From NCBI RefSeq assembly GCF_012911975.1, contig NZ_SMDQ01000027.1, forward strand, positions 1 to 64,000: DNA of 64,000 nucleotides. Direction: 5' to 3'. A program made the translations under genes and the position numbers. Origin of the DNA: Nodosilinea sp. P-1105 (lineage in GTDB: Bacteria; Cyanobacteriota; Cyanobacteriia; Phormidesmidales; Phormidesmidaceae). The notes beneath the pieces are model-generated. The model made no database searches, was not told the origin of the DNA, and saw nothing but the letters and a program-made list of their open reading frames with translations. Positions 43,019-46,567 of this stretch are shown here, one piece after another. Every line of letters begins with the position of its first letter. The first letter of the stretch is position 1.

Positions 43019-44761
43019 ATGACTGTTGCCAAAGCTATATTTATCTCCTACCGTCGCTGCGATAGCATCGACATCGTAGGGCGAATTTATGACCGACTAG
43101 TGGCGTATTTTGGCGCCAACAGCGTATTTAAAGATGTTGATTCCATTCCCTTTGGGGTAAATTTTCGCCAGCATTTAGAGCGGGAAGTTAGCCATTGCCC
43201 GGTCTTGCTGGCGGTGATTGGTCCTGAGTGGTTAACCATTACCGACAAACAAGGGCAGCGGCGTCTTGACGATCCAGCTGATTGGGTACGGGTCGAAATT
43301 GAAGCCGCCCTGAAACGAGACAGTCTGGTGATTCCGGTGTTAGTAGGCGGGGCATCGATACCCAAGGATACCGATCTGCCGGACAGTTTACGAGGTCTGG
43401 TCTATCGTCAAAGCGCTCTGGTACGCCATGACCCCGATTTTCATCGGGACCTGGATCGCTTAATTCAACGTTTGGAAGAGGTGTTTAGTCGGTTAACGCC
43501 TCCGGCTGGGGCACCGTCGTCTCCCTATGGGGCGTTGATTGATGACTTGGCGGCGGCTTTGACCGCGGCCAAGTCCCCTCAAGAGCCGACCCCTCGGCCT
43601 CTAACCCGGCGGCGGTGGTTACGGCTGATGGGGCTGGGGCTGATGGGGGGAAGTTCAACGCTGGCCGTGCGTCATTGGAGACAGTCACTCCAGGAGCTTA
43701 CACCTAACCGGATTGCGGCCCCACTGCCGTCCCTGGCGACGCTGCCCGATCGACTGCAGCGGGCTTGGACGGCTGCCACTGACCTGTCTAGCGATCGCAC
43801 CGATGCCTATGAATTTGTCTCGGTGACGGTGGACGAGTTTGGACGGCAACGCCATCAGGCCCAAGTCGCCACTCAGGCTTACACAGAGATTTCCTTAGAA
43901 ACGCCAACTGGCACTGTCCTGTTGCCATTAGTGGCGATCGCGGGGGGACAGTTTTTGCAAGGAGCCCCAGCTGCTGAACCCGGTCATGCCGCCGCTGACC
44001 TGCAGCCAACCATTGCCACGGTAGACTCCTTTTGGATGAGCATTTACCCCATCACCCAAGCCCAGTGGCGAGCGGTGGCCCAGCTGCCAGAAGTGAACCG
44101 CCCACTGGCGACGAACCCGGCCCACTTTAAAGGCGACGACGATCGCCCGGTAGAGCAAGTGACCTGGATGGAGGCCGTAGAATTTTGCGATCGCCTCAGT
44201 CGATTAGCCCAACCAGGGCTATCCCCCTTTCGCTTACCCACCGAAGCCGAGTGGGAATATGCCTGTCGGGCCAAAACCACGACCCCCTTTCATACCGGCG
44301 AAACCTTGACCACAGCCTTAGCCAACTATGACGGCACTTATCCCTACCGCCAAGAGCCCGTGGGGACGTTGCGCGGCACCACCACCGCCGTAGGCAGCCT
44401 GGGCCATGCCAACGCCTTTGGCCTCTACGACATGCACGGTAATGTGCTGGAGTGGTGTGCGGATGCTTGGACGCAGCAGGTCCCTGAAGCTATCGATGAA
44501 GACATAGAGACCGACAGTCAAGCCGATGAGCCCCCAACCACCGAGTTAATTCAAGCCGATCCATCCCACACCCCCCGGCCCCATGTCGAACCGCCAGTAC
44601 GGGCGATTCGCGGTGGGTCCTGGCAAAGTCGCCCTCACCACTGTCGGTCCGCTTACCGCACGGGCTTGACCGCCCACAGCCGCCAGCGGGATGTGGGCTT
44701 TCGGATTGTGCGATCGCTGCTTCTGGAAAATCAGGCTGATTCAGGTCCCGGGACGAGCTGA
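43019..44761 (+). CDS. TIR domain - membrane helix - formylglycine-generating-enzyme-like (SUMF1) protein
   Basis: 580 residues. Residues about 4-160 form a bacterial TIR domain: AIFISYRRCDS, YDRLVAYFGANSVFKDVDS, FRQHLEREVSHCPVLLAVIG and DPADWVRVEIEAALKRD, with E93 at the usual NADase glutamate position. After a linker comes a helix (WLRLMGLGLMGGSSTLAV, about 200-218). The C-terminal half is a SUMF1/FGE-like C-type-lectin fold: PLVAIAGGQFLQGAPAAEPG, SFWMSIYPITQAQWRAVAQL, LPTEAEWEYACRAKTT, NAFGLYDMHGNVLEWCADAW, RAIRGGSWQSRPHHCRSAYR and RDVGFRIV. The fold is complete, but metal and Cys residues of true FGE were not all checked. Such fusions in cyanobacteria are linked to signalling or conflict, or serve as hypervariable receptors; which applies is inference. 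Confidence 0.85.
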   Translation: MTVAKAIFISYRRCDSIDIVGRIYDRLVAYFGANSVFKDVDSIPFGVNFRQHLEREVSHCPVLLAVIGPEWLTITDKQGQRRLDDPADWVRVEIEAALKRDSLVIPVLVGGASIPKDTDLPDSLRGLVYRQSALVRHDPDFHRDLDRLIQRLEEVFSRLTPPAGAPSSPYGALIDDLAAALTAAKSPQEPTPRPLTRRRWLRLMGLGLMGGSSTLAVRHWRQSLQELTPNRIAAPLPSLATLPDRLQRAWTAATDLSSDRTDAYEFVSVTVDEFGRQRHQAQVATQAYTEISLETPTGTVLLPLVAIAGGQFLQGAPAAEPGHAAADLQPTIATVDSFWMSIYPITQAQWRAVAQLPEVNRPLATNPAHFKGDDDRPVEQVTWMEAVEFCDRLSRLAQPGLSPFRLPTEAEWEYACRAKTTTPFHTGETLTTALANYDGTYPYRQEPVGTLRGTTTAVGSLGHANAFGLYDMHGNVLEWCADAWTQQVPEAIDEDIETDSQADEPPTTELIQADPSHTPRPHVEPPVRAIRGGSWQSRPHHCRSAYRTGLTAHSRQRDVGFRIVRSLLLENQADSGPGTS

Positions 44762-44851: not shown

Positions 44852-44918
44852 AACCAAATCCAAGTCCAGACCTCAGGTTTTGCCTGTGAGAAAACGCCAG
44901 ATCCCGAGCTGAACTTGG
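44852..44918 (+). repeat. 67-bp hairpin repeat family, copy D
   Basis: Exact duplicate of copy C, offset 71 bases, separated by four bases (TCTA). The TerB gene begins 54 bases after it. Confidence 0.85.
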
Positions 44919-44971
44919 TATATTACGGCTTAGCACCTCAATGCCGATGTGATGCCAACCTCATAAATCCT

Positions 44972-45658
44972 ATGCCCACAGTCACTAATTCTCCCTATAC
45001 TGAAGCGCAAATTAAAGTTTGGCTGCGGGGGCTGTTAACCATCGCCTGGGCCGACGGTGATTTTGATCAAGATGAACAAGCCTTGATTGCCGACATGACC
45101 CAGGAAGAGTTGGCCCCTTGCATTGACTTTGACCACTTTGACCCAGTCACCCCAGAGGAACTGGGCACAACCCTAGGGGATGATCCCCAGGTGGCCGAAA
45201 ACTTTCTGCGAATGGCGGTGATGGTTGCCCTGGCCGATGGGGTCTACTCTGTTGAAGAGGATGAGCAACTACAAGCCTTCTGTCAGGTGCTGAACTTAGA
45301 GGACAACATCCTGACATCGGTGCGATCGACCCTCTATAGCCTTAGCCCTGACAATGCTGAGGTGGCTGAAGGGCTGCGCCCTCCTGCCGACAGTGGTAAA
45401 ATCGACCCGCTCAAACCGGCCCGAGAATGGCTAGACCAGCTAGAAGTACATGATCCCCGCCTGGCTAGGTTTGTGTGCAAACTGATTCCTTCCCAATGCC
45501 CGTTTGAGCGGGATGTGGTGCTGTTTAACAAAAAGCTGGTGCACATTCCCCCCATGTGCAAGCTCAATCCCCTCTATGAGCAGTTAGTGGGCCTACGATT
45601 TCGGGCTTTATCCTATCTGGCGGATGACTGTGGCGAAGATGTCACGCCCCTGCTTTAA
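44972..45658 (+). CDS. TerB-family (tellurite resistance-like) protein
   Basis: 228 residues from ATG 44972; the frame extends upstream into repeat D, so an earlier start is unlikely. Residues about 15-130 have the TerB pattern: IKVWLRGLLTIAWADGDFDQ, DEQALIADMTQE and FLRMAVMVALADGVYSVEEDE, an EF-hand-like acidic helical domain. The rest (REWLDQLEVHDPRLARFVCK and IPPMCKLNPLYEQLVGLRFR) reads like the Mo-dependent nitrogenase C-terminal domain attached to TerB in cyanobacteria. No nitrogenase gene is nearby. Its stop is 18 bases before the next gene, so the two may be co-transcribed. Confidence 0.72.
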   Translation: MPTVTNSPYTEAQIKVWLRGLLTIAWADGDFDQDEQALIADMTQEELAPCIDFDHFDPVTPEELGTTLGDDPQVAENFLRMAVMVALADGVYSVEEDEQLQAFCQVLNLEDNILTSVRSTLYSLSPDNAEVAEGLRPPADSGKIDPLKPAREWLDQLEVHDPRLARFVCKLIPSQCPFERDVVLFNKKLVHIPPMCKLNPLYEQLVGLRFRALSYLADDCGEDVTPLL

Positions 45659-45676: not shown

Positions 45677-46567
45677 ATGACATTCAAGCAATTTATCCTA
45701 TTGGGTTTGCCGGGAGTGGAGGTGCAGGAGCAAGGGCATACCCTAGCTGAGCACTGGCATATTCCCCATATTTCTATGGGCCAGCTGGTGGGTAAGGCTA
45801 CCGAGCAACCATCTGCCCTTGGCCTTGAGATCCGCCCTTATGTCGACGCGGATGCCCTGATCCCTGACGCCCTGGCCATGACGCTACTTCGCCGCCGACT
45901 AGAGCAACCCGATGCCATGTTGCAGGGGTGGGTGCTGGATGGGTTCCCGCGCACTCTGGCCCAGGCGCAAGGGCTGGGCGACTGGCTGACAGCGGTGGGA
46001 CAACCAGCCCCTACCGTGGTTTACCTGAAGGCAATTCCTGAGTTGTTGCTAAATCGGCTGTGGAATCAGGGCGGGCAGCAACAGCCTATCCCGCTACTTC
46101 GCCGCCAGTTGGACGATCATGGGGCGGCGTTAGCCCCCCTTCTAGACTACTACCAGCAGCAGGGACAACTCGAAACCGTTAACGGTAGCCTATCAGCTGC
46201 CGAGGTGGCCCGGGATCTGGCCCAGGTGGGCAACGACCCACCAACGGCAATCCGTTGGGTGCAAGATGAAGCTGAGCTGGATGAACTACTGGCGAAAGGC
46301 TCTGTACTGGTGGTCGACTGTATGGCATCCTGGTGCGGCGCTTGCAAGCAAGTGATGCCATTGATCAATCGGTTAGCGGAAACCTATGGCCATCAGGTCA
46401 AGGTGATGACCATGGACTTTGATGCCAATCGGCAGATTTCTAAGCGATTCGGCCTCCAAGGCATTCCGGCGGTGATGTTCTTTAAAGACGGCGACTTACA
46501 GGAGACCCTGACAGGGGTGAAGTCTTACCAAGACTACGAGGTCACCCTGACCTGTTTATTGGACTAG
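45677..46567 (+). CDS. Degenerate adenylate kinase-like domain fused to thioredoxin
   Basis: 296 residues from ATG 45677 (TTG 45665 is a weak alternative). Residues 1-185 follow adenylate kinase order: FILLGLPG at the P-loop position, IPHISMGQLV, GWVLDGFPRTLAQAQ, VVYLKAIPELLLNRLW and LLRRQLDDHGAALAPLLDYY. The Walker A residues GKGT are replaced (GLPGVEVQEQG, no Lys), and the LID is very short, so phosphotransfer is unlikely. Residues about 195-296 are a full thioredoxin: VLVVDCMASWCGACKQVMPL with the active W219-C-G-A-C-K224, DFDANRQISKRFGLQGIPAV and VMFFKDGDL. The stop codon TAG lies inside the end of the CTAG-type repeat at 46564. The function of the pseudo-kinase half is unknown. Confidence 0.8.
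   Translation: MTFKQFILLGLPGVEVQEQGHTLAEHWHIPHISMGQLVGKATEQPSALGLEIRPYVDADALIPDALAMTLLRRRLEQPDAMLQGWVLDGFPRTLAQAQGLGDWLTAVGQPAPTVVYLKAIPELLLNRLWNQGGQQQPIPLLRRQLDDHGAALAPLLDYYQQQGQLETVNGSLSAAEVARDLAQVGNDPPTAIRWVQDEAELDELLAKGSVLVVDCMASWCGACKQVMPLINRLAETYGHQVKVMTMDFDANRQISKRFGLQGIPAVMFFKDGDLQETLTGVKSYQDYEVTLTCLLD

Follow-up and report, generated by a model that had tools for sequence, protein, structure and literature searches.

A degenerate adenylate kinase domain fused to a thioredoxin in Nodosilinea and related cyanobacteria

Thioredoxins (Trx) joined to another protein are, as such, already known. In NTRC of cyanobacteria and chloroplasts another enzyme carries the thioredoxin at its C-terminus (accessible part of PMC9025218), and in the animal protein NME8/TXNDC3 it is likewise combined with a nucleotide-kinase domain, a nucleoside diphosphate kinase (accessible parts of PMC11457495 and PMC2777172). 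The coupling between adenylate state and thiol switching has so far been approached through CP12 and CBS-CP12; the accessible part of PMC9406205 describes Microcystis CBS-CP12 as a protein that binds AMP and then inhibits the activation of PRK by thioredoxins. Among the matches listed, our search of the titles and abstract openings of the open-access literature found no fusion of an adenylate kinase (Adk) with a thioredoxin and no bacterial pseudo-adenylate-kinase. To our knowledge few bacterial pseudo-adenylate-kinases are known.

The gene described here was found in a 64,000-nucleotide stretch of a Nodosilinea sp. P-1105 contig (the window), where a single open frame runs from the ATG at 45677 to the stop codon at 46565-46567 and encodes 296 amino acids (Table 1). 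Residues 8-163 of the translation match Pfam ADK (PF00406) with 89.8 bits (cut-off 26.8) and residues 198-284 match Pfam Thioredoxin (PF00085) with 72.4 bits (cut-off 23.5); CBS and CP12 domains had no Pfam match in this protein. The best NCBIfam model was NF002700 (adk, PRK02496), and the score of 142.7 bits, far under the cut-off of 262, fits a diverged Adk paralogue. AlphaFold predicted two folded domains for the window protein with a mean pLDDT of 88.2. When residues 2-188 of the model were used as query in a structure search, the N-terminal part resembled solved adenylate kinases, the top match being 2c9y (Z 23.7, rmsd 2.4, 185 residues; Z was 20.5-23.7 among the 50 matches listed). Taking the profile score above cut-off and the structure match together, the Adk part of the window protein is predicted to have the adenylate kinase fold. 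The preliminary description of this DNA had recognized the adenylate kinase motifs IPHIS, DGFPRT and RRQLDDH in this order, and all three are present; its designation of the protein as a pseudo-adenylate-kinase fused to thioredoxin was right, and applies family-wide in the fused proteins that we compared.

Table 1. Features of the fused gene and its product (nucleotide positions in the window; aa, amino acids of the translation)
Feature	Position	Strand	Basis
Fused gene, 296 aa + stop	45677..46567	+	Open frame, Pfam; M1 invariant in 24-row alignment A1
Pseudo-adenylate-kinase domain (predicted), aa 1-184	45677..46228	+	Pfam ADK; model matches solved adenylate kinases
Degenerate P-loop GLPGVEVQEQ, aa 10-19	45704..45733	+	Alignment of fused and unfused Adks
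Conserved stretch E76-Q-P-D-A-M-L82 with one-residue insertion L82	45902..45922	+	Column conservation
DGFPRT, kept, aa 88-93	45938..45955	+	Arg in 35/39 fused
LID stretch QGGQQQ without RxRxDD signature, aa 131-136	46067..46084	+	Alignment
Linker, aa 185-192	46229..46252	+	Poorly ordered in model, pLDDT <50 at 187-191
Thioredoxin domain, aa 193-296	46253..46564	+	Pfam Thioredoxin
Active site CGAC, aa 220-223	46334..46345	+	Translation, Trx alignment

A peptide-pattern scan of 84,980 species genomes, which reaches close relatives only, returned 28 loci, 24 of which align to query residues 1-295/296 at 52-62% identity; these 24 come from Leptolyngbya, Nodosilinea, Phormidium tenue, Adonisia, Halomicronema, Tildeniella and related MAGs. 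A search for the same architecture in cyanobacteria, which the preliminary description had recommended, was made in an even sample of 388 genomes of the class, occurrences being counted among the matches listed (to about E 5e-32). It found a match through both domains in 38 of the 388 genomes, while 20 genomes had no match of any kind. Again among the matches listed, the fusion is present, within the window's genus, in 16 of 25 sampled genomes and absent from the other 9, it is present in 20/35 genomes of the rest of the family (f1), which gives 36/60 for the whole of f1, and in two genomes of family f4, both f4 genomes listed; none was listed for the remaining 326 sampled genomes of the class. 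Beyond cyanobacteria the search for the fusion consisted of the close-relative scan and of plasmid and phage searches.

Distinct full-length fused proteins, the window copy always included, were collected in one alignment of 32 and in a later one of 39, sequences interrupted by a stop or cut off where a contig ends being excluded when the 39 were picked. In a Halomicronema-like MAG the fused gene is interrupted by an in-frame TAG (L021:1376-2281, apparently the same sequence as L064), and in L082, a MAG member, the gene is frameshifted. These two lesions are what could be cited for an artefact, i.e. for a frameshift, mis-assembly or chimera as the source of the fusion. We consider this next to impossible, because recurrence in 38/388 genomes excludes chance and the homologues refute it: 38 of the 39 distinct fused proteins read whole, rows with a stop or contig end having been removed beforehand.

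The residues that an adenylate kinase needs were compared in a joint alignment of the 39 fused Adk domains with 40 unfused cyanobacterial Adks, equivalents (T31, R36, R88, Q92, R119, R167) being given in what we take to be E. coli Adk numbering. The Walker-A Lys is present in 0/39 fused and in 40/40 unfused domains, the Thr of GKGT in 2/39 and 40/40, the two LID Arg in 2/39 and 0/39 versus 40/40 and 40/40, and the second (last) Asp of the LID signature RxRxDD in 0/39 versus 40/40. L082, which is one of the 39, is frameshifted at the place of the Walker-A Lys, and the statement that it had lost its P-loop was dropped, as the P-loop stretch sits in another frame. The canonical Adk of the window's own genome (L070) has the intact P-loop GPPGAGKGTQ. 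The loss of the P-loop Lys claimed in the preliminary description was borne out by these counts, and since this Lys is absent from all 39 fused domains, its absence is not an error of the window sequence; a functional P-loop in close homologues, named there as a finding that would speak against the proposal, was encountered in 0/39. The accompanying claim of a reduced LID has to be corrected: the LID has the same length as in L070, and what disappeared is the RxRxDD signature, not size. Judged from its sequence, the fused Adk fails both tests of a functional adenylate kinase, Walker-A GxxGxGK[ST] and LID RxRxDD, and the domain appears to be a pseudoenzyme of the adenylate kinase fold, from which we infer loss of catalysis. 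Some pseudo-looking kinases proved active elsewhere, and in 21/38 fused domains the lost position is followed by Lys or Arg, thus one could argue that the protein is still a kinase which uses a shifted Lys (GVGVK) or acts on another substrate. The Lys/Arg is, however, not conserved (Gln in the window), and with the GKGT Thr, both LID Arg and the second LID Asp depleted to the extent given above, we find residual kinase activity very improbable.

In each of the two domain trees the fused proteins (39 distinct sequences) form one clade, with support values of 100/100 for Adk and 100/98 for Trx, which fits a single origin of the fusion. The Trx tree placed no particular unfused Trx as nearest to the fused ones. 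In an Adk tree with four outgroup Adks the fused domains join three adk2 proteins (L068, L085, L094) with moderate support (81/76); the outgroup sequences, taken from named plasmids, have long branches and fall among the cyanobacterial ones, which leaves the position of the root uncertain. A clade of the fused Adks with four adk2 proteins, L091 being the fourth, is neither demonstrated nor rejected (p-AU 0.489). The three adk2 genes stand in the order adk2, 2Fe-2S ferredoxin, Trx, small zinc-ribbon-like protein (Pfam matches under cut-off), CBS-CP12 in G033, G351 and G227 (L068, L085, L094), genomes which also carry the fused gene elsewhere. A second, shorter CBS protein follows the cluster in L068 (4065-7139). 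The same kinds of genes are found in one stretch, in another order, in G352 (L091). In Dolichospermum (L026, Nostocales) an Adk-like gene, Trx, a small protein and CBS-CP12 are consecutive, and a Nodularia plasmid (L136) has an NMP kinase, Trx, a small protein and two CBS proteins; ferredoxin is missing from both. The set of adk2, ferredoxin, Trx, zinc-ribbon-like protein and CBS-CP12 possibly constitutes an adenylate-linked redox module. The preliminary description had also named, as a finding that would count against it, the occurrence of the two halves as separate genes elsewhere. This is literally so in most cyanobacteria, but in the six loci L068, L085, L094, L091, L026 and L136 the Adk and Trx genes are close together, and such neighbouring genes likely represent a forerunner of the fusion, not its refutation.

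The Nodularia plasmid, whose cluster Adk is accompanied by Trx and CBS genes, was typed as mobilizable. The Nostocales cluster Adks (L026:5998-6654, L136:5998-6654) keep the P-loop GKST, have DGFPS for DGFPR and have Ile at the T31 equivalent; judged from these residues, parts of their AMP side seem to be lost, which is the reverse of what is seen in the fused proteins.

No conserved operon partner of the fused gene was found in 33 fused loci (window included, several of them short): the widest neighbour families among those listed occur in 8/33 loci, all from one close group, the window's two neighbour genes have no match in the other 32, and the L068 CBS-CP12 protein has no match in any fused-gene locus, several of these being short. 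In the window, a gene at 44915-45658, encoding a TerB-like part and a 'Mo-dependent nitrogenase C-terminus' domain, ends 18 bases upstream of the fused gene, and both are possibly co-transcribed here. The 580-aa protein encoded at 43019-44761 looks, by eye, like a TIR domain with a sulfatase-modifying (FGE-like) domain after it. A mobile or phage origin was considered and rejected, as 80% of the query was covered in 0/91 phage and 1/171 plasmid records among those matching, and the sole plasmid record was the unfused Nodularia gene pair. Co-occurrence with CP12 was uninformative as a clue, CP12 being present in 59/59 family genomes.

On the AMP side of the fused domain the Arg of DGFPR (R88 equivalent) is kept in 35/39 fused versus 39/40 unfused proteins, the Gln four residues further (Q92 equivalent) in 38/39 fused and the core Arg at residue 127 of the window protein (R119 equivalent) in 39/39. 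The R167 equivalent is retained in 32/39 (Gln in the window copy), the R36 equivalent in 25/39 (Gly in the window copy) and the T31 equivalent in 1/39; the Asp column of DGFPR contains Asp in 19/39 and Glu in 16/39. Most of the AMP arm is gone in L083 and L084 (genus g34) and a shorter deletion affects it in L079, with the Trx whole in all three. Column conservation, calculated from 38 fused rows (L082 left out) with permutation p-values that ignore relatedness, was lower than that of random columns for ATP/catalytic positions (p 0.03), about average for the AMP pocket (p 0.44) and not significantly above the average column for the two phosphate Arg (p 0.12).

These data bear on the suggestion, made in the preliminary description, that the protein is a nucleotide- or adenylate-sensing adaptor: the kept core Arg and Gln agree with it, whereas the average AMP-pocket columns, the below-average ATP/catalytic columns and the near absence of the AMP arm in L083/L084 give it no special support. 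As an AMP (or ADP) sensor, the pseudo-Adk would bind AMP via the retained core Arg and Gln and gate the tethered Trx, as an analogue of CBS-CP12. The R88, Q92 and R119 equivalents speak for such a sensor, and so do the CBS-CP12 genes close to its nearest unfused relatives, given the AMP link reported for the Microcystis protein (accessible part of PMC9406205). Nevertheless, we regard it as a possible but rather unlikely explanation, since AMP-pocket conservation is only average, the T31 equivalent is missing in 38/39 and R36 in 14/39, two members have lost most of the arm and a third has a shortened one, and the window copy itself lacks the R36 and R167 equivalents.

Eight close relatives were compared in all 28 pairs, a set that covers one Nodosilinea-like group without the window's own branch. 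The dN/dS ratio lay within 0.06-0.16 in the Adk part and within 0.03-0.10 in the Trx part; in this group both domains are under purifying selection. It could be argued that the Trx works alone, and that the Adk domain is an evolutionary relic, a slowly decaying appendage serving solubility or spacing. The Adk dN, which reaches about three times the Trx dN in the same pairs, and the Adk-domain deletions of L083, L084 and L079 next to a whole Trx are in line with decay, but the low dN/dS of the Adk part in the group measured and the existence of positions that the fused family conserves and unfused Adks do not make a relic improbable. Such columns, conserved in fused and variable or different in unfused proteins, number 14 (5, 8, 27, 37, 51, 76, 77, 86, 108, 128, 161, 173, 175 and 176). 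E76 occurs in 38/38 fused versus 3/40 unfused domains, Q77 in 38/38 versus 19/40, and the inserted L82 in 36/38 fused domains, its column being nearly empty in unfused Adks. Of the 15 family-specific positions that these columns and L82 make up, 7 (5, 27, 76, 77, 82, 108, 161) are placed by the model's secondary structure where helices end and strands start, or close to such points, and parallel-fold topology suggests that these seven, W27, E76-Q77, L82 and Q161 among them, probably lie opposite the nucleotide cleft. The other eight are not on that side and follow no nameable pattern.

The thioredoxin domain keeps both cysteines, the cis-Pro and the buried Asp (VVDC, 39/39). The active site is CGSC in 30/39 fused proteins, CGPC in 7/39, CGAC in 1/39 (the window) and CSSC in 1/39, versus CGPC in all 13 unfused Trx compared. 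The "intact CGAC thioredoxin" of the preliminary description is therefore intact in CxxC, buried Asp and cis-Pro, but not in the usual active-site Pro, the sequence being WCGAC and not WCGPC. Changes of this Pro in E. coli and S. aureus Trx were reported to make the protein more oxidizing, and the Pro-less cyanobacterial TrxC was inactive with insulin and FBPase, restoring the Pro giving no rescue (both in the accessible part of PMC6262485). By analogy, fused Trx domains without Pro (CGSC/CGAC) are probably more oxidizing than ordinary Trx. In view of the Pro changes and the TrxC assays it would be unsafe to treat the fused Trx as a normal reductase, and, TrxC being inactive, an insulin assay of the fused protein may fail independently of the Adk part. 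A fused Trx with CGPC is found in L069 (G033), L065 (G227) and L064 (G351), genomes that also hold the adk2 cluster, and the only other CGPC sequences among the 39 are the five of genus g34; this may reflect shared descent.

The explanation that we tentatively put first, although with less than even confidence, is a lineage-specific pseudoenzyme fusion in which the pseudo-Adk would serve as the docking part of a protein whose tethered Trx is probably more oxidizing. The starting point would be a duplicated gene for a short-LID adenylate kinase, possibly adk2 near a Trx gene; it would have been fused to thioredoxin and would have lost ATP binding and catalysis, with its folded domain retained for docking or targeting. 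The docking surface would perhaps be remote from the former nucleotide cleft, near W27, E76-Q77, L82 and Q161, and the domain would hold the tethered Trx near one or a few client proteins. Because the unfused genes neighbour CBS-CP12, a Calvin-cycle or adenylate-linked client would be the best guess. This proposal starts from what the sequences contain: the fusion and its recurrence, one clade per domain, lost catalytic residues, purifying selection on both domains in the one group of relatives, and linked unfused genes. A docking role would fit the loss of the ATP site, the average conservation of the AMP pocket, the fact that some members do without most of the AMP arm, and the newly conserved residues. 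It must be noted, however, that the family-specific residues could be conserved for structural reasons, that the kept R88, Q92 and R119 equivalents fit residual AMP or ADP binding, and that the CGPC of 7/39 fused proteins argues against a family-wide redox shift. Nor does any conserved neighbour in the fused loci hint at a client, and 9/25 genomes sampled from the window's genus do without the gene. In our ranking docking or targeting is followed by AMP sensing, then by the relic, with the residual kinase last. We also considered an energy-gated redox switch, in which the dead Adk would sense AMP or dock on an adenylate-linked enzyme and control the attached oxidizing Trx, combining the logic of adk2, Trx and CBS-CP12 in one polypeptide; we think this unlikely, though worth stating. 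If the pseudo-Adk does steer or gate the Trx, the fused protein would offer a single-protein handle on the coupling of adenylate state to thiol switching in cyanobacteria. Independently of the fusion, the unfused adk2-Trx-CBS-CP12 genes offer a lead that can be tested.

It is instructive to set the fused protein beside the systems that resemble it. CBS-CP12 shares with it the reported AMP link to Trx action on PRK (accessible part of PMC9406205), but consists of CBS and CP12 domains, to neither of which the window protein has a Pfam match. The active site of cyanobacterial TrxC (WCGLC) is also without Pro (accessible part of PMC6262485), but TrxC, as described, is unfused and has another residue in place of the Pro. 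The partner of Trx in NTRC is a thioredoxin reductase, not an Adk. NME8/TXNDC3 differs in having another kinase fold and another domain order. The adk2 clusters come closer, containing the nearest, moderately supported unfused relatives of the fused Adk with a Trx gene close by; there the genes are separate, the P-loop is intact and the Trx has CGPC, and their neighbourhood is not common to the fused gene. The canonical cyanobacterial short-LID Adk (PF00406; NF002700 PRK02496) has in common with the fused domain the fold, the LID length and the DGFPR core, whereas the fused domain is without the Walker-A Lys, the GKGT Thr and the LID RxRxDD, and is joined to a thioredoxin.
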